From Litoreibacter roseus (GTDB lineage: Bacteria > Pseudomonadota > Alphaproteobacteria > Rhodobacterales > Rhodobacteraceae), in contig NZ_BLJE01000006.1 in assembly GCF_009811795.1 (NCBI RefSeq), forward strand, positions 124,001 to 188,000: a DNA stretch of 64,000 bases, written 5' to 3'. Positions 14,230-21,048 of this stretch are shown in pieces. Position 1 is the first letter of the stretch. Every line of letters begins with the position of its first letter. The translations under genes and the position numbers were made by a program. Under the pieces are notes generated by a model, which saw only the letters and a list, made by a program, of their open reading frames with translations, was not told where the DNA came from and did not search any database.

Positions 14230-14799
14230 TCAGGTCTCGGCCGGTCCCCGGGCAAGCGCGGCGACCCCGGTGCGCGCAAGTTCTTGCAGCCCAAGCGGGC
14301 GCATCAGGTCGGCGAAGGCGTCAATCTTCTCCGACGTACCGGTCATTTCGAAAACAAAGCTTTCCAGTGTGGAATCCACGACATTTGCGCGGAAGATATC
14401 CGCCAGCCTGAGGGCTTCAACACGCTTGTCCCCGTGACCTGCGACCTTGAACAATGCAAGCTCCCGTTCCACGGAAGGGCCTTCTTCGGTCAGGTCGTGG
14501 ACCTCGTGAACGGGCACCATCCGACCGAGCTGCGCCTTGATCTGCGTGATCACCGCAGGCGTTCCGGTCGTTACAATCGTAATCCGGGACGTGTGACCTT
14601 CATGATCTATCTCGGCGACGGTCAGGCTTTCGATGTTGTAACCTCGGCCGGAAAACAACCCGATCACCCGCGCGAGAACGCCCGCCTCGTTCGTCACGAT
14701 GACTGTCAGCGTATGCGTCTCTATGATATCGGCATTGGGGTCCTTGAGATCATAGGCCGAATGCTTCGACGTGCCTTTTTTGATTTTCAGCGTGGACAT
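14230..14799 (-). CDS. ilvH: acetolactate synthase, small regulatory subunit
   Basis: Regulatory subunit of acetohydroxyacid synthase; it confers valine feedback control on the catalytic subunit encoded just upstream. The 189 residues contain an ACT domain starting near residue 30 (THTLTVIVTNEAGVLARVIG, then FSGRGYNIESL) and a typical C-terminal domain. I chose ATG 14799; the frame to 14889 would run into ilvI. The 40-base gap from ilvI and shared orientation make an ilvIH operon. The name ilvN is also used in alphaproteobacteria. Confidence 0.94.
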   Translation of the reverse strand: MSTLKIKKGTSKHSAYDLKDPNADIIETHTLTVIVTNEAGVLARVIGLFSGRGYNIESLTVAEIDHEGHTSRITIVTTGTPAVITQIKAQLGRMVPVHEVHDLTEEGPSVERELALFKVAGHGDKRVEALRLADIFRANVVDSTLESFVFEMTGTSEKIDAFADLMRPLGLQELARTGVAALARGPAET

Positions 14800-14839: not shown

Positions 14840-16597
14840 TCACACCAAAACCGCGCCTTTCGTGTCGATGGCGTCCTCGGTCGAGGCATCGCCCATCAGC
14901 ATTTCGTTGTGCGCCGCGCCAGACGGGATCATGGGAAAACAGTTCTCATGCTTTTCTACAAGGCAATCGAACACAACCGGTCCGTCATGGGCCAGCATGT
15001 CGCGGATCGCGTCGTCCAGATCAGCTGGGTCGGAACAGATAATACCCTTGGCGCCGAACGCTTCGGCCAACTTCACGAAATCGGGCAAAGCCTCTGACCA
15101 AGAGTGGGAATAGCGGTTGGCGTGCAGCAGTTCCTGCCATTGGCGCACCATGCCCAGACGCTCATTGTTCAGGATGAATTGTTTGACCGGCAGGTCGTAT
15201 TGCCGCGCGGTGCCCATCTCCTGCATATTCATCAGCCAGGAGGCTTCGCCCGCCACGTTAATAACCAACGCGTCCGGATGGGCCACCTGAACACCAACGG
15301 ACGCGGGCAGGCCATAGCCCATCGTTCCCAAGCCGCCCGATGTCATCCAGCGGTTTGGTTCATCAAAACCAAGATACTGCGCGGCCCACATCTGGTGCTG
15401 ACCCACCTCAGTCGTGATATATCGGTCCTTGCGATCTTTCGTCAGCGCTTCCAAACGTTGCAGTGCATATTGCGGTTTGACTACGGTTTCCGAATTTTTG
15501 TAGGAAAGACAGCGCACTGCACGCCATTCTTCAATCTTCGTCCACCACTTTGCCAAACCCTCCTTGTGGGTCTTGCGGCCCCGCGATTTCCAGATGCGCA
15601 GCAGATCCTCCAGCACGTGGCCGACATCGCCGATGATCGGAATATCCACGTGGATCACCTTGTTGATGGAAGACGGATCGATATCGATATGTGCCTTCTT
15701 GGATTTCGGGCTGAACGCGTCGACGCGGCCGGTGATCCGGTCGTCAAAGCGTGCCCCGATATTGATCATCAGATCGCAGTCATGCATCGCCATGTTGGCC
15801 TCGTAGAGCCCATGCATGCCCAGCATTCCCAGCCATTGCGGACCAGAGGCCGGATAACACCCCAAACCCATGAGTGTCGAGGTGACGGGAAAGCCCGTGG
15901 CCTTGGCCAGTTCGCGCAGCAGCTGCGTCGCAGCATCGCCGGAGTTTATGACCCCGCCGCCGGTATAGAGGATCGGGCGTTGCGCCTTCTCCATCAGCTC
16001 GGCCAGGGCGGTGATCGCGTCTATGTCGCCCTTCACGCGCGGGGCGTAGTGTTTGGTGTCCGCTTGCTGCGGCCCGACATAGGAGCCCTTTGCGAACTGA
16101 ACGTCCTTCGGGATATCAACCAGAACGGGACCGGGCCTGCCATTTGTGGCCACATGGAACGCCTGATGGATCGTATCGCCCAGCTTGTCCGTCTCTTTGA
16201 CCAGCCAATTGTGTTTCGTACAGGGGCGCGTGATACCGACGGTGTCCGCCTCCTGAAAAGCATCGTTGCCGATCATGAAGGTGGGCACCTGTCCCGACAG
16301 AACGATCATCGGGATCGAATCCATTAGCGCGTCGGTCAGACCAGTCACCGCATTGGTTGCACCTGGTCCAGAGGTAACCAGAACCACGCCAGGTTTGCCG
16401 GTGGCGCGGGCGTAGCCCTCTGCCGCGTGGGTCGCGCCCTGTTCGTGGCGGACGAGGATATGCTTGATCTCCGTCTGCTGAAAAATCTCATCGTAAATCG
16501 GAAGGACAGCGCCGCCGGGATATCCAAAGATCGTATCCACGCCCTGATCGATCAGAGCCTGAACCACCATTTGCGCACCTGTCATTTGACGTGTCAT
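14840..16597 (-). CDS. ilvI: acetolactate synthase, large catalytic subunit
   Basis: Thiamine-diphosphate enzyme that makes acetolactate or acetohydroxybutyrate, the first common step of branched-chain amino-acid synthesis. The 585 residues start with FGYPGGAVLPIYDE and HEQGATHAAEGYARATG, where the catalytic Glu sits. FAD and ThDP binding regions follow, ending in GEASWLMNMQEMGTA and LNNERLGMVRQW. ATG 16597 has GGAGA upstream; the longer frame reads through the attenuator hairpin and is wrong. Expression is likely controlled by the attenuator at 16635-16738. Confidence 0.96.
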   Translation of the reverse strand: MTRQMTGAQMVVQALIDQGVDTIFGYPGGAVLPIYDEIFQQTEIKHILVRHEQGATHAAEGYARATGKPGVVLVTSGPGATNAVTGLTDALMDSIPMIVLSGQVPTFMIGNDAFQEADTVGITRPCTKHNWLVKETDKLGDTIHQAFHVATNGRPGPVLVDIPKDVQFAKGSYVGPQQADTKHYAPRVKGDIDAITALAELMEKAQRPILYTGGGVINSGDAATQLLRELAKATGFPVTSTLMGLGCYPASGPQWLGMLGMHGLYEANMAMHDCDLMINIGARFDDRITGRVDAFSPKSKKAHIDIDPSSINKVIHVDIPIIGDVGHVLEDLLRIWKSRGRKTHKEGLAKWWTKIEEWRAVRCLSYKNSETVVKPQYALQRLEALTKDRKDRYITTEVGQHQMWAAQYLGFDEPNRWMTSGGLGTMGYGLPASVGVQVAHPDALVINVAGEASWLMNMQEMGTARQYDLPVKQFILNNERLGMVRQWQELLHANRYSHSWSEALPDFVKLAEAFGAKGIICSDPADLDDAIRDMLAHDGPVVFDCLVEKHENCFPMIPSGAAHNEMLMGDASTEDAIDTKGAVLV

Positions 16598-16634: not shown

Positions 16635-16707
16635 AAAAAAGCCCCCGATCCTGCTGGGCGGGGGCGCATGGTTTCCGATATGGATGTCGTTTAACGACCC
16701 ATGCACC
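16635..16707 (-). promoter_or_regulatory. ilv attenuator: terminator with competing antiterminator
   Basis: On the minus strand a stem GCCCCCG/CGGGGGC (16665-16659/16647-16641) with an 11-base loop is followed by six U (16640-16635); this is an intrinsic terminator between the leader peptide and ilvI. An alternative 9-bp helix pairs GGTGCATGG (16707-16699, inside the leader peptide reading frame) with CCATGCGCC (16671-16663) and would take the first bases of the terminator stem. When a ribosome stalls on the Ile/Leu/Val codons, the antiterminator can form and ilvIH is read. This is standard amino-acid attenuation. Confidence 0.88.
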
Positions 16708-16738
16708 ACTTCTCCACAATGACGACGAGGATAGGCAT
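16691..16738 (-). CDS. ilv leader peptide
   Basis: A 15-residue peptide MPILVVIVEKWCMGR, too short for usual gene finding. ATG 16738 is preceded by GGAG and GAGG motifs, and the stop is TAA at 16693-16691. Six consecutive branched-chain residues (Ile-Leu-Val-Val-Ile-Val) are exactly what ribosome-mediated attenuation of a branched-chain operon needs. The codons that would be exposed by stalling overlap the antiterminator strand. It corresponds in role to the ilv leader peptides of enterobacteria but shares no length or sequence with them beyond composition. Confidence 0.88.
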   Translation of the reverse strand: MPILVVIVEKWCMGR

Positions 16739-16767
16739 TTTCCTCAAGCTCCTTTGCAAGTGCAGCG

Positions 16768-16795
16768 ACATTAGCAAAGGAAAAGTGGGCGTCAA
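16768..16795 (-). promoter_or_regulatory. possible promoter of the ilv leader
   Basis: On the minus strand TTGACG (16795-16790) stands 16 bases from TAATGT (16773-16768). The -35 is good and the -10 is weak. It would start RNA near 16761, about 23 bases before the leader peptide ATG, a sensible distance for an attenuated operon. Confidence 0.4.
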
Positions 16796-16956: not shown

Positions 16957-17307
16957 ATGGCGAAGACGCGGATGGTTCATCAGTTCGGGATGGGAACATC
17001 GCTGCGGCGAATGGATTATACGGAGGCCGCTTGCCGTGCGGTGCGGGACGCCTTGTGGCACAATTCGCTGAGCGTCGCAGAAGCGTTCGGCGTCGAGAAA
17101 AGCGCAATGATCATTGAGGCCGAGATTGGAGTGCAAAATCCAGACGCGGTCGATCTGGACAAGGTGCGCGCGATCTTTCCCTACGGTCAGGCGAAGGTCT
17201 CGGTTCGGGCAGGCGGGCTGGATGTTCCAAAACCGGATAGCGACGCGGTGACGGTTATTGCGAACGCCGCCATCATCGTTTCGTTTGATATGGAGCCTGC
17301 ATCATGA
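16957..17307 (+). CDS. Lin0512 family protein, first of a tandem pair
   Basis: A 116-residue protein of the Lin0512 family. The hallmark is GMGTSLRRMDYTEAACRAVRDAL, followed by a hydrophobic strand that reads IIEAEIGVQNPDAVD. Family members are small, widespread in actinobacteria and alphaproteobacteria, and of unknown function. ATG 16957 is chosen over the longer frame, which starts within the ilv control region. Its stop overlaps the start of the next gene, a clear paralogue (ATGA). Confidence 0.85.
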   Translation: MAKTRMVHQFGMGTSLRRMDYTEAACRAVRDALWHNSLSVAEAFGVEKSAMIIEAEIGVQNPDAVDLDKVRAIFPYGQAKVSVRAGGLDVPKPDSDAVTVIANAAIIVSFDMEPAS

Positions 17308-17666
17308 AGCGGATCATTCTTGAGATGGGGACCGGCAATGACCTGTATGGAATGGACTATACGAAAGCCGCCAGGCGGGCCATTCAGGACGCGCTGCACC
17401 ATTCCTCGCTGGTGATGTTCAAATCCCTCGGTCTGGATCATGTGCAGATGAGCGTTCGCGTGACGGTTGCCGTGCAAGACCCTGCCAAGCTGGACCTTGA
17501 GGCGCTGAAGGCCGAACTGCCGCGGGGCAGGGCAGAGGTCAAAGCCGTCAAGGGGGGGCTGAACGTGGAAGATCCGGACAACGCCACCACCCATGTCATC
17601 GCAACCGCGGCGGTCGAGGCTTTTTTGCCGGTCGACGCATCCGACTGGCGGATATCCGGCGGCTAA
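17304..17666 (+). CDS. Lin0512 family protein, second of a tandem pair
   Basis: A 120-residue paralogue of the gene before it. The two share GMGTS/EMGTG, a D-Y-T-A-A-R-A-DAL-H core and a V-DP/DL pattern. They are translationally coupled, which fits a heteromeric pair. The gene ends in a 4-base convergent overlap with the response regulator (17663-17666). No catalytic motif is known for the family. Confidence 0.87.
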   Translation: MKRIILEMGTGNDLYGMDYTKAARRAIQDALHHSSLVMFKSLGLDHVQMSVRVTVAVQDPAKLDLEALKAELPRGRAEVKAVKGGLNVEDPDNATTHVIATAAVEAFLPVDASDWRISGG

Positions 17667-18301
17667 AGTGCGTTGCCTGTTCCTTGCAGTACACCATGTT
17701 CCATTGCATAGCGGGTCAGGCCTGCGGTCGAGGTGATCCCAAGCTTGCGCTTGATATTCTTGCGGTGCGTCTCGACTGTATGGACCGAGATATCGAGATC
17801 GCGCGCGACTTCCTTGTTGGACTTCCCCTGCGCCAGCTGCAGCAGAACGGTCTGTTCGCGGGCGGTGAGCATTTCCCGTCCACCTGTGTTCAACGGCTCG
17901 AGCGCCGTCGTCGCACCGGTGCAGAGATAGGTCTGTCCCTTCATCACCGTGGTGATCGCGGTGTAAATCTCTTCGATGGGTACGTCTTTCAGAACATATC
18001 CGCGGGCGCCGTGGCTCATCGCGGTCGAGACGTATTCCGGGGCATTGTGCATGGACAGGATCAGAATTCGGGTCTCTGGATTGCGTTCAAGCAATTGTTC
18101 CGTGGCCGACAGCCCGCCCAGCTGCGGCATGTTCAGGTCCATCAGGATGACATCCGGCGCCAGATCCGCGACGTTGTCGAGCGCGTCTTGTCCGTTTCCG
18201 AGCAGACCCACGACTTCAATCTCGTCATAGGTGTCAAGGATGGCGCGGATCCCCTCGGCGACCATGGGGTGGTCATCGACGATCAGAACGCGAATTGTCA
18301 T
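17663..18301 (-). CDS. NarL/FixJ-type response regulator
   Basis: A 212-residue regulator. The receiver domain (1-120) has the acidic pair DD at 9-10, the phospho-acceptor D55 in VILMDLNMP and a Lys in YVLKD. The LuxR-type helix-turn-helix is at about 145-205 (LTAREQTVLLQLAQGKSNKEVA). Its ATG 18301 overlaps the stop of the sensor kinase, so the two are a matched pair. The neighbouring divergent TRAP transporter is the likely target, by position only. Confidence 0.92.
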   Translation of the reverse strand: MTIRVLIVDDHPMVAEGIRAILDTYDEIEVVGLLGNGQDALDNVADLAPDVILMDLNMPQLGGLSATEQLLERNPETRILILSMHNAPEYVSTAMSHGARGYVLKDVPIEEIYTAITTVMKGQTYLCTGATTALEPLNTGGREMLTAREQTVLLQLAQGKSNKEVARDLDISVHTVETHRKNIKRKLGITSTAGLTRYAMEHGVLQGTGNAL

Positions 18302-19731
18302 GCGGTTTTCCTTGTGTCTGACCGGTTGATGGATTGTTCCGGCGGAAGCATATGGCTGAGCGGGACGGAGGCTTCAACCATTGTGCCTTTTTCCGAGGAC
18401 AGGACGCGGAGCGTGCCGTTCAACTGATCGATCCGCTCCTGCATGTTCCGCAGCCCCAGACCGCCGGATCCGCCGCCGGGAGTCGTGAGACCCCGCCCAT
18501 TGTCCTGAATTCGGAGGGTCGCGCCCTTGCGGTGGCCGAACACATCGACCTTCACTTCGGTTGCATCAGCGTGCCGCTCCACATTGGTCAGAGCTTCCTG
18601 GGCGATGCGGTAAAGCGCGATCTTGGCGTCATCGTCCAACCTGTTGCGGAACACGACCGTTTCAAAATACGTGTCGATCCCTGTTCGTGCGCGAAATGCA
18701 TCGATCAGCGATTTCAACGCAGGACCAAGGCCCAGATCATCTAGCACGCCGGGACGCAGATCCGCCGAAATGCGCCGCACTTCGTGGATCGCGCCGGTCA
18801 GTCCGTCAATGCCTTGATCCAGATTGTCCGACGCGCCCTGATCGCCTGATTTCAGTCGGCGGCGGGCCAGCTCGAGCGTATAGCGCACGCCGATCAGAAT
18901 TTGGCTGATGCTGTCGTGCAATTCGCGCGCCACGCGGCCCCGTTCTTCCTCTTGCGTGTCCAGAATGCGTTCGGTCAACGCTTTGAGCTTGGTGTCGGCC
19001 AAGCGCCGTTCCCGTAGGTTCAGAAGAAGTCCGGTGACGAAAACGGCGACAAGTGCGGCGATGGTAATGAGCACGATGATTACGAAGGTCTCGCGGATCC
19101 GCGCCGTGGTGTCGGCTCGTGCTGTGCTGACGGTTTCTAGCACATCGTCGATAAAGATACCTGTGCCCAATGCCCATCGCCAGTCCTGCAATCCGATCAC
19201 ATAGGTGACCATGCGGGCCGTCTCCCCGGTGGATGGCTTGGTCCAGTCATAGGTGTGATAGCCGCCGCCCGACCGCGCGGTCTCAATGAGGGCGTCCACA
19301 ACCGGAACACCGTTATGGTCGCTGAGACCGGACCAGTTTTGGCCAATTAGAGAGGTTTGGCGCGGGCTCACCAGATTGTTGCCGTCATAGTCGTAGACGA
19401 AAAAGAAGCCGTCCTGACCGTACAGCATAGCACTGAGGACCTGCGTCGCCTCAAGCTTAGCCCCTTCATCAAAGGGAGAAGCGTTGCCGTAGATCGACCC
19501 GATCGCCGTGCGTGCAAGCGACAGGTAGTTTTTCAACTCTGCCCGCTTGGCCTCAATCAACTGTGTCTCAAGTTCCCGGATTTCCGTCTCGGCCAGAATG
19601 CGCGACTGATTGGTCACCACCACGGCAATCGCGCCGACAGCAAGAACAAGCGGCAGGGTGGCCAGCAGAAAAATCTTCTGGCCGTAGCTCAGGGTGCGCC
19701 GGCGCACAAATTTTGTCTTCAACAGGGTCAC
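18298..19731 (-). CDS. sensor histidine kinase with periplasmic Cache domain
   Basis: Membrane kinase of 477 residues. There is a first membrane segment at about 18-40 and a periplasmic single-Cache-like domain at 41-214 (GQDGFFFVYDYDGNNLVSP and WALGTGIFIDDV are typical). A second membrane segment lies at 215-238, followed by a HisKA_3 domain with phospho-acceptor H272 in ARELHDSISQ and an ATP-binding domain with NGRG and GGLGLRNM. Cache sensors of this type bind small organic acids. It is divergent from the TRAP genes, so it may sense their substrate; this is inference. Confidence 0.92.
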   Translation of the reverse strand: MTLLKTKFVRRRTLSYGQKIFLLATLPLVLAVGAIAVVVTNQSRILAETEIRELETQLIEAKRAELKNYLSLARTAIGSIYGNASPFDEGAKLEATQVLSAMLYGQDGFFFVYDYDGNNLVSPRQTSLIGQNWSGLSDHNGVPVVDALIETARSGGGYHTYDWTKPSTGETARMVTYVIGLQDWRWALGTGIFIDDVLETVSTARADTTARIRETFVIIVLITIAALVAVFVTGLLLNLRERRLADTKLKALTERILDTQEEERGRVARELHDSISQILIGVRYTLELARRRLKSGDQGASDNLDQGIDGLTGAIHEVRRISADLRPGVLDDLGLGPALKSLIDAFRARTGIDTYFETVVFRNRLDDDAKIALYRIAQEALTNVERHADATEVKVDVFGHRKGATLRIQDNGRGLTTPGGGSGGLGLRNMQERIDQLNGTLRVLSSEKGTMVEASVPLSHMLPPEQSINRSDTRKTA

Positions 19732-19837: not shown

Positions 19838-19965
19838 TCGGGACCGTCTACCGGCCATTGGGTATTTCACCTTATCCCGCGTCTCGCTACAAACAGCGCA
19901 CTGTAAACGATCCGGGTCGTTCCAATCGCACGTGGAACGAGTCGAATATTTGGGAGGAGACACCT

Positions 19966-21048
19966 ATGGATCGTCGTTCATTCTTGAAAAATTCCGCATT
20001 GGGCGGAACCGCTGCAGCGGCAACCACTCTGGCCGCACCAGCGTACGCACAAGGCAACCGCACACTGACCATGGTCACCACGTGGGGCCGTGGTCTGGCT
20101 GGTGTGTTCGACAGCGCACAAAAAGTCGCTGAAGACATCACTTCCATGTCCGACGGTCAGTTGACCGTTGATGTGAAGGCCGCCGGTGAGCTGGTTGGCG
20201 CATTCGAAGTTTTTGACGCCGTGACTGCAGGTCAGGCCGATATGTATCACGCGGCTGACTATTACTTCGTAGGTCAGCACCCAGCCTATGCCTTCTTCAC
20301 GTCCGTACCGTTTGGTATGACCGCGCAAGAGCTGGTCAACTGGTACCACCACGGCAACGGTGCGGCCCTGCATGACGAGTTGGGTCAGATCTTCGGTCTG
20401 AAATCCTTCCTTGCCGGTAATACGGGCGCACAGGCCGGTGGCTGGTTCCGCAAGGAAATCGCAGGCCCAGAAGACTTCAACGGTCTGAAATTCCGCATGC
20501 CCGGTCTGGGCGGTAAAGCCCTTGGTAAACTGGGCGCATCCGTTCAGAACCTTCCCGGCGCGGAAGTGTACCAGGCGCTGGCCTCCGGTGCGATCGACGG
20601 CACCGAATGGATCGGCCCTTGGGCAGATGAAAAGGCGGGCTTCCAGGAAATCACGAAGACTTACTACACCGCTGGCTTCCACGAGCCGGGCGCGGGTCTG
20701 TCCCTTGCGACCAACCGCGACGTCTTTGATAGCCTGACACCTGCACAGCAGAAAATCATCGAAATCGCATCTGCCAGCACACACCAGTGGAACCTCGCAC
20801 AGTTCCTCAATAACAACGGTGCAGCGCTTCAACGTCTGCAATCCTCCGGTGTGAAAACGCTCGAATTCCCTGACTCCGTCTGGGATGCCTTCGGCCGCGC
20901 CTCGCAGGAAGTCCATGACGAGAACATGGGCGACGAGCTCTACAAGAAAGTCTATGACGACTACCAAGTGTCGCTCAAGGCGTCTTCTGGCTGGATCGTG
21001 AAGTCCGATGGCGCATACCGCGCACAGCGCGACCGCGTTCTGGGCTAA
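19966..21048 (+). CDS. TRAP transporter substrate-binding protein (DctP, TakP-like)
   Basis: Periplasmic binding protein of 360 residues. It begins with MDRRSFLKN and a twin-arginine-type signal followed by a hydrophobic stretch ending APAYAQ. Ligand-pocket hallmarks of the TakP group are present: GNTGAQAGGWFRKEI, KFRMPG and GTEWIGPWADE. TakP binds 2-oxoacids such as pyruvate, and a related Thermus protein binds lactate, so a 2-oxo or 2-hydroxy acid is the best guess. ATG 19966 has GGGAGGAGA upstream. It is the first gene of dctPQM. Confidence 0.92.
   Translation: MDRRSFLKNSALGGTAAAATTLAAPAYAQGNRTLTMVTTWGRGLAGVFDSAQKVAEDITSMSDGQLTVDVKAAGELVGAFEVFDAVTAGQADMYHAADYYFVGQHPAYAFFTSVPFGMTAQELVNWYHHGNGAALHDELGQIFGLKSFLAGNTGAQAGGWFRKEIAGPEDFNGLKFRMPGLGGKALGKLGASVQNLPGAEVYQALASGAIDGTEWIGPWADEKAGFQEITKTYYTAGFHEPGAGLSLATNRDVFDSLTPAQQKIIEIASASTHQWNLAQFLNNNGAALQRLQSSGVKTLEFPDSVWDAFGRASQEVHDENMGDELYKKVYDDYQVSLKASSGWIVKSDGAYRAQRDRVLG

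Follow-up and report, generated by a model that had tools for sequence, protein, structure and literature searches.

Is the short reading frame that precedes the acetolactate synthase genes ilvI and ilvH in the window (the whole analysed stretch of 64,000 nucleotides, to which all coordinates refer) part of a switch answering to branched-chain amino acids, and is such a switch confined to these genes? The original prediction, made from this one sequence, described a ribosome-mediated attenuator. It is considered here against relatives of the locus, covariance-model searches, and known systems.

The leader region ahead of ilvIH

On the minus strand, the parts follow one another in the order promoter, Shine–Dalgarno sequence, leader frame, 9-bp helix with a nested stop-codon hairpin, terminator, ilvI, and ilvH. 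The frame, the promoter, both helices, and this gene order are observed directly, as are the codon class and the covariation in aligned relatives. The likely ilvIH promoter has the −35 element TTGACG (16790..16795) and, 16 nt after it, the −10-like TAATGT (16768..16773). TTGAC stands before the leader in 72 of 73 aligned sequences, against 4.2 expected from shuffling, and starts 60–68 nt before codon −10 in 66 of these 72; the −10 element of the relatives has TA at 0.85 and 0.99 after a spacer of 17 nt, one nt longer than in the window. The Shine–Dalgarno sequence AAGGAG (16749..16754) lies ten nt upstream of the leader frame MPILVVIVEKWCMGR (16691..16738; 15 residues, ATG to TAA), which holds the control codons ATC CTC GTC GTC ATT GTG (Ile Leu Val Val Ile Val; 16715..16732). 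The predicted 15-residue Ile/Leu/Val leader ahead of ilvIH proved correct to the base, and NCBIfam identified the genes as ilvI (14840..16597; acetolactate synthase 3 large subunit, NF006581, 1131 bits, cut-off 974) and ilvH (14230..14799; acetolactate synthase small subunit, NF008864, 222.5 bits, cut-off 119). The products of these two equivalogs make the amino acids that would be sensed, as is expected of genes under an attenuator.

The 9-bp helix begins, as had been predicted, inside the leader. Its 5′ arm GGTGCATGG (16699..16707) covers leader codons 11–14, and its 3′ arm CCATGCGCC (16663..16671) gives its last three nt to the base of the terminator. A small hairpin of 5 bp, GTCGT-TAA-ACGAC (16686..16698), is nested in this helix and carries the stop codon in its loop. 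The predicted terminator with six U is present at 16665–16635: the hairpin (16641..16665) consists of GCCCCCG (16665–16659), an 11-nt loop, and CGGGGGC (16647–16641), followed by the U run (16635..16640), which is five T or longer in each of the 73 aligned sequences. A consensus terminator scan missed this hairpin, since the scanner limits the loop to 8 nt. Neither the window nor the leader alone matched an Rfam family, apart from one unrelated weak match at E ≤ 10, and the window element does not reach the gathering score of RF02502 (Atu_C8).

A divergent small gene lies on the other side of the promoter from ilvI. Two adjacent overlapping genes (16957–17307 and 17304–17666), both of the Lin0512 family (PF09585), form a tandem pair divergent from ilvIH. 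Further on, a Cache-domain histidine kinase with a LuxR-type response regulator is encoded on the minus strand (17663–19731), and the gene of a DctP-type solute-binding protein (19942–21048) adjoins this locus; as a guess, the kinase is perhaps a sensor of the substrate transported via the DctP-type system.

Conservation in relatives and the proposed mechanism

Eighty named relatives of IlvI, the nearest of them from Litoreibacter (Rhodobacterales), were taken, and up to 450 nt upstream of each was read. One (L013) was left out owing to a truncated contig, and the layout is kept in 72 of the 79 with enough upstream sequence. By eye, two of the seven others (L009 and L045) keep a leader containing branched-chain codons and have a changed stem, and four (L022, L050, L059, and L080) are reduced or unclear. 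The seventh (L026, Nereida sp. MMG025) keeps the TTGAC promoter upstream of ilvI and has seemingly lost leader and terminator, which would make it a natural attenuator-free strain. The window and the 72 relatives form an alignment of 73 sequences (A1). The pattern used to collect it required [AG]TGG[GC]N, three more bases, a stop codon, and a T-run; conservation of these columns, which include part of the MGR-stop motif, is therefore partly by construction, and the fair test is given by the unselected upstream codons, 3′ arm, and terminator arms.

The comparison with relatives, proposed with the original prediction as its check, shows that codons for Ile, Leu, or Val, taken as a class, are kept at set positions. 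Ile, Leu, or Val is encoded by the five codons −9 to −5 preceding MGR in 72, 72, 71, 68, and 63 of the 73 sequences, and the second base of these codons is T in 72, 72, 71, 69, and 64; the first base is variously A, C, or G and is T in no more than 2. The fixed second base together with the varying first one indicates selection for Ile/Leu/Val as a class. In the ten codons before the MGR end, the mean number of such residues is 5.08 against 2.06 after base shuffling, and the other two frames of the same stretch give 1.10 and 0.38. All three amino acids are present in 64 of the 73 leaders, in line with the claim that codons for each of them are included. Two of the 72 relatives depart from this: in L060 the frame is cut short by an earlier stop codon (MATLVVIVGT), and the leader frame of L073 encodes no Ile, Leu, or Val.

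Codon usage within the leaders is also skewed. GTA accounts for 47% of the Val codons in the leaders and for 4.3% of those in the ilvI genes at these loci, and for CTA among Leu codons the figures are 43% and 1.9%; together, 126 were observed where 9.9 are expected from the ilvI usage of each locus. This rare-codon argument is confounded and supportive only, because A in the third position is also common at codons −4 to −2 (0.35 against 0.08 in ilvI) and the window leader itself has neither GTA nor CTA.

Both helices show two-sided changes in the relatives. For the antiterminator with its stop-codon hairpin, 93.2% of cells in the 73 sequences are paired and five pairs are changed on both sides, and none of 500 shuffles reached any of the measures; the stop-codon hairpin, with the consensus CCG-GTAA-CGG, has 93.6% of cells paired and two pairs changed on both sides. 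The terminator has 95.4% of cells paired and five pairs changed on both sides, the latter reached by none of 500 shuffles; a single measure, pair types, was reached by shuffles, once in 500. For both helices, the percentage paired and the covariation score lie above every slid register. The number of cells with two-sided changes behaves differently, with 15 for the antiterminator slid by +1 against 11 in the true register and 19 for the terminator slid by −2 against 17, and the antiterminator slid by +2 gives an equal number (five) of two-sided pairs. RNAalifold recovers both helices unaided. The antiterminator and the terminator overlap by three nt, alignment columns 87–89 serving both, and minimum-energy folds hold the terminator and the antiterminator core together in 59 of the 73 sequences, the window among them. 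The predicted competition between the helices would thus be an overlap of only three nt at the terminator base and not a full swap; given this small overlap and these folds, exclusion must be kinetic, act via the foot of the terminator, or come from another effect of the helix. No conserved protector or pause hairpin was found: the 5′ arm pairs with the upstream leader at 0.439 against 0.419 in shuffled sequences, and above its own null in 45 of the 73. In our view, such a hairpin is a common rather than an essential feature of attenuators.

Since the layout, the Ile/Leu/Val codons, and the covariation of the helices are conserved in relatives, we consider it very probable, on comparative sequence grounds, that the element is a ribosome-mediated transcription attenuator that governs ilvIH according to how fully the tRNAs for Ile, Leu, and Val are charged. 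Translation, stalling, termination, and the direction of the response are what we infer from the parts described. In the proposed course of events, transcription would start from the conserved TTGAC promoter, with a ribosome entering the leader immediately. Given ample charged tRNA, the ribosome would reach the stop codon, covering the 5′ arm of the long helix and opening the stop-codon hairpin, so that the downstream terminator would form and RNA polymerase would stop. When branched-chain amino acids are scarce, the ribosome would stall on a control codon; stalled at codon −5 or earlier, it would leave the 5′ arm free. The long helix would then be the first to form and would occupy the three terminator-foot bases that adjoin the U run; RNA polymerase would proceed into ilvIH. 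From the start of codon −5, the last of the conserved control codons, to the 5′ arm there are about 11 nt, which is approximately how far a ribosome extends downstream of its A site; this would explain why the control codons end there. From the absence of a conserved protector hairpin, readthrough is predicted when the leader is wholly untranslated, unlike in E. coli trp.

Other explanations have to be weighed against this attenuator. To a chance frame beside a chance hairpin we give next to no credence: the leader alone folds only mildly better than shuffled sequences (z −1.96) and terminator-like sites are common in the region according to the consensus terminator scan, so single-sequence energy would not have proved the element, but the conservation and covariation in relatives have already refuted this explanation. 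It is highly improbable that the region is a metabolite-binding riboswitch or a protein-binding leader independent of translation; a terminator with an alternative helix is the output of riboswitches as well, yet the conservation ahead of the helix follows a codon pattern, keeping an amino-acid class and not an aptamer, and the window leader has no Rfam riboswitch match.

The remaining two explanations concern how the same parts would act. We regard it as unlikely, while worth serious consideration, that the helix does not compete with the terminator and that it, or the stop-codon hairpin, acts otherwise, for example as a pause signal, which would keep the ribosome abreast of the polymerase, or through crowding of the RNA exit channel. 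The overlap of only three nt and the folds holding both helices speak for this, as does the Atu_C8-type helix, which ends several nt before the terminator and is kept together with its stop-codon hairpin; the 3′ arm, on the other hand, runs into the terminator foot in the 73 aligned ilvIH elements, as overlap requires. The lack of overlap between helix and terminator in the Atu_C8 type speaks against overlap being the whole mechanism. Action in trans of the terminated leader RNA or of the leader peptide, in the manner of Sinorhizobium rnTrpL/peTrpL and with or without attenuation in cis, seems to us distinctly improbable. Related Rhizobiales elements are catalogued as the sRNA Atu_C8, so such RNAs may accumulate, and peTrpL has been reported to act in trans in an alphaproteobacterium. 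Against this, apart from codons −9 to −5 and the R-MGR end, the majority of leader positions vary, and the C-terminal MGR coincides with an antiterminator arm, so that its conservation is explicable by RNA pairing.

Distribution of the element and its occurrence before efflux genes

A covariance model built from A1 (R1) finds the element in the genome of the window at E 1.5e-20, with no other match below E 0.01; two weak second matches (E 0.013 and 0.52) were dropped as plain terminators by eye. Within the window's family, R1 has a match at E ≤ 0.01 in 135 of 149 genomes and none in the other 14, and the 135 are not all counted via ilvIH: at least three (G289, G292, and G296) are counted solely through an element before an MFS gene, and among matches with E > 1e-3, that of G303 alone was followed. 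One genome (G373) has one element before ilvIH and one before an MFS gene. One match (L124, in G413), which looks decayed, with no open leader and, by eye, no adjoining MFS gene, was left uncounted. Among 52 loci with the downstream gene examined, 21 lie before ilvI, including all 12 of the family matches listed at E 1.5e-20 or better. At class level, L094–L111 were judged by eye to be plain terminators, and L112, which has a TTGAC promoter and a ATGCGCCCC terminator and in which no leader was seen by eye, was dropped; R3, a model of the ilvIH elements without the terminator, finds no leader or helix in L094–L112. Four ilvIH relatives scanned against Rfam (L003, L062, L039, and L073) gave no match. 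The analysis adds to a large marine family a well-supported class of attenuator for which Rfam has no model, and R1 finds this class in most sampled genomes of the window's family.

Beyond the family, six matches below 1e-6 were obtained with R1 in 289 class genomes, all six before an MFS gene; two of the proteins were typed and fall above the cut-off of TIGR00710 (Bcr/CflA). A short leader frame is present in each of the six, and three or more consecutive Val occur in four of them but not in G197 and G034. One of these MFS proteins used as query at E ≤ 1e-80 matched 17 of the 289 class genomes and 136 of the 149 family genomes. Among 48 MFS loci read, which comprise the 18 class matches in full and a further 30 from the family, R1 finds the element in ten, namely 7 of 13 non-family loci and 3 of 35 family loci; L123 is a further family case. 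The best MFS homologue of the window's own genome is without an attenuator. In nine non-family genomes, seven of which carry the MFS element, no such branched-chain leader was found upstream of ilvI, and R3 finds no element there; two of these nine upstream regions have, by eye, a terminator-like hairpin with a T-run. In one non-family genome (G004; L219), ilvI is preceded by a different leader, MTTQLVLIRQPLSGRD, and inverted repeats of its own are visible by eye; this is perhaps an attenuator of another design.

Twenty of 30 plasmid records with the MFS gene were examined, and 15 carry the element: three of the Roseobacter group, two of Burkholderia, and ten of Rhizobiales. One other has a TPP riboswitch instead, and in four neither was found. 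The TPP riboswitch precedes the MFS homologue in Agrobacterium tumefaciens pAt2 (L230, 515–631), where a NUDIX gene lies downstream. In Phaeobacter piscinae, Roseobacter denitrificans, and Leisingera caerulea (L231, L232, and L234), the MFS gene and its attenuator are on plasmids typed as conjugative, with the leaders MSVKFVVVVSRRCMVR, MTVKFVVVVSKRRMVR, and MTFNFVVVVSKRCMVR. All ten Rhizobiales elements and that of G107 exceed the gathering score of RF02502, “Rhizobiales sRNA Atu_C8”, which is above cut-off in one of 385 class genomes (G107), and in the ten Rhizobiales loci the RF02502 match ends 98–134 nt before the start of the MFS match. In L233, L235, L236, L268–L271, L273, L276, L277, and L113/L240, where the RF02502 match precedes a Bcr/CflA-like MFS gene, it includes a short Ile/Leu/Val-rich frame, a stop-codon hairpin, and a terminator. 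Because the ten Rhizobiales versions match RF02502, Atu_C8 is, judged from sequence, probably not a free-standing sRNA but the leader RNA that an efflux-gene attenuator releases on termination.

Are these elements the same scaffold as that of ilvIH? Global identity between MFS and ilvIH elements without their terminators is 0.65–0.80 against shuffled means of 0.64–0.67, with L173 not above; because this excess is modest, R3, which lacks the terminator, was built. It was applied to 69 MFS loci, of which 26 are counted as carrying the element, and gave 25 matches at E ≤ 0.1, from 65.5 bits down; 24 of them are leaders. The remaining one (L184, 16.3 bits), in an MFS locus without the element, was taken as chance, and the weakest leader (L123, 16.5 bits) scores too close to it to be told apart; R3 fails to detect L144 and L173. 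Among 58 control sources (the window, plain-terminator loci, and ilvI loci of other families), the window scores 66.5 bits and otherwise a single stretch appears at 13.5 bits, and the ten Rhizobiales loci score 21.6–33.4 bits against at most 13.5 in the controls other than the window. In the opposite direction, a model from 14 MFS elements only (R2) finds the ilvIH element of the window at 2.3e-18 and marks the same place as R1 in G022, G154, G252, G334, G362, and G363; that ilvI lies downstream of it was checked in G022, G154, and G252. The results of R2 and R3 therefore show sequence and layout in common beyond the terminator. R1 scores the Rhizobiales type at 27.6–34.3 bits in one run and 23.1–29 bits in another, overlapping the best unrelated match of the class scan (L094, 33.5 bits), so for the Rhizobiales link we rely on R3 and the common layout.

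In the 14 MFS elements, 86.7% of the cells of the helix are paired and its covariation does not exceed that of shuffles (342 of 500 were as high), so the case for an MFS antiterminator is one of position and pairing alone. The MFS terminator covaries beyond shuffles, with two of five measures reached by 95 and 134 of 500. Among 398 genomes of the phylum, R2 matched 24 genomes of the window's family and gave one partial match (G771, positions 75–105); a second match in G740 (L267) was rejected as a terminator only. As R2, at E ≤ 1e-5 and with strict filters, found no MFS-type element outside the family in these genomes, the efflux version appears patchy and not widespread in the samples.

The MFS leaders differ in composition: Val makes up 75% of their Ile/Leu/Val residues against 54% in ilvIH leaders, where whole MFS leaders without Met are set against ten codons of the ilvIH leaders, and VVV occurs in 13 of 18 against 11 of 73. 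We think it likely that one attenuator scaffold does two jobs, before ilvIH and before Bcr/CflA efflux genes, with the efflux leader shifted toward Val runs and Atu_C8 as its terminated leader. The scaffold so conceived would comprise a TTGAC promoter, a short hydrophobic leader, a stop-codon hairpin nested in a GGCGCATGG/CCATGCGCC helix, and a terminator; it would serve ilvIH in Rhodobacterales and efflux in some other Alphaproteobacteria, on conjugative plasmids of the Roseobacter group, and in Burkholderia. The efflux gene would be switched on when ribosomes slow at Val codons, either because charged tRNA is lacking or because a drug arrests the ribosome on a peptide of this kind. The plain reading is that the efflux version senses a shortage of charged Val-tRNA. 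A bolder one, by analogy, is that it may sense a drug-stalled nascent peptide, as leaders of the ErmCL type do; the leaders of the Roseobacter-group plasmids read FVVVVS, which we take to resemble macrolide-stalling leaders (ErmCL and ErmAL1). If the proposal is right, amino-acid attenuators can pass between biosynthesis and drug export, and the shared switch offers a direct and cheap test of the signal to which the pump answers. No earlier report of a link between this efflux gene and an attenuator, or of Atu_C8 as such, was found in the open-access papers searched (subscription papers being outside the scope).

Comparison with known systems

Like the window element, the RF02502 Atu_C8 consensus has a GCGCATGGGC...CCCATGCGC helix, a hairpin whose loop holds a stop codon, and a terminator, and an Ile/Leu/Val-rich frame is likewise present at the loci matching it; unlike the window element, Atu_C8 stands before a Bcr/CflA MFS gene, has no overlap of helix and terminator, and is filed as an sRNA. 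The attenuators of E. coli ilvGMEDA, ilvBN, trp, his, and leu combine a leader peptide with control codons, an antiterminator, and an intrinsic terminator. The same three parts are found in the window; its type differs in that no conserved protector hairpin was found, the stop-codon hairpin is nested in the antiterminator, and the overlap of the competing helices is small. Closer to the window, an attenuator of Caulobacter crescentus ilvBN/ilvIH was reportedly described by Tarleton in 1994. According to a later source, attenuation of Caulobacter ilvBN involves a leader with tandem Ile and Val codons, and the terminator is avoided when the ribosome pauses (PMC4117421). As far as this description goes, an alphaproteobacterial acetolactate synthase operon with an attenuated leader is common to Caulobacter and the window, and the window leader has Leu in addition. 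The alphaproteobacterial ilvB/ilvIH leaders of Vitreschak et al. (2004), as cited in PMC1273637 and PMC2573895, concern the same operon and the same inferred mechanism. Within what these sources give, the kind of system present in the window is already known from Caulobacter ilvBN and from the alphaproteobacterial ilvB/ilvIH leaders.
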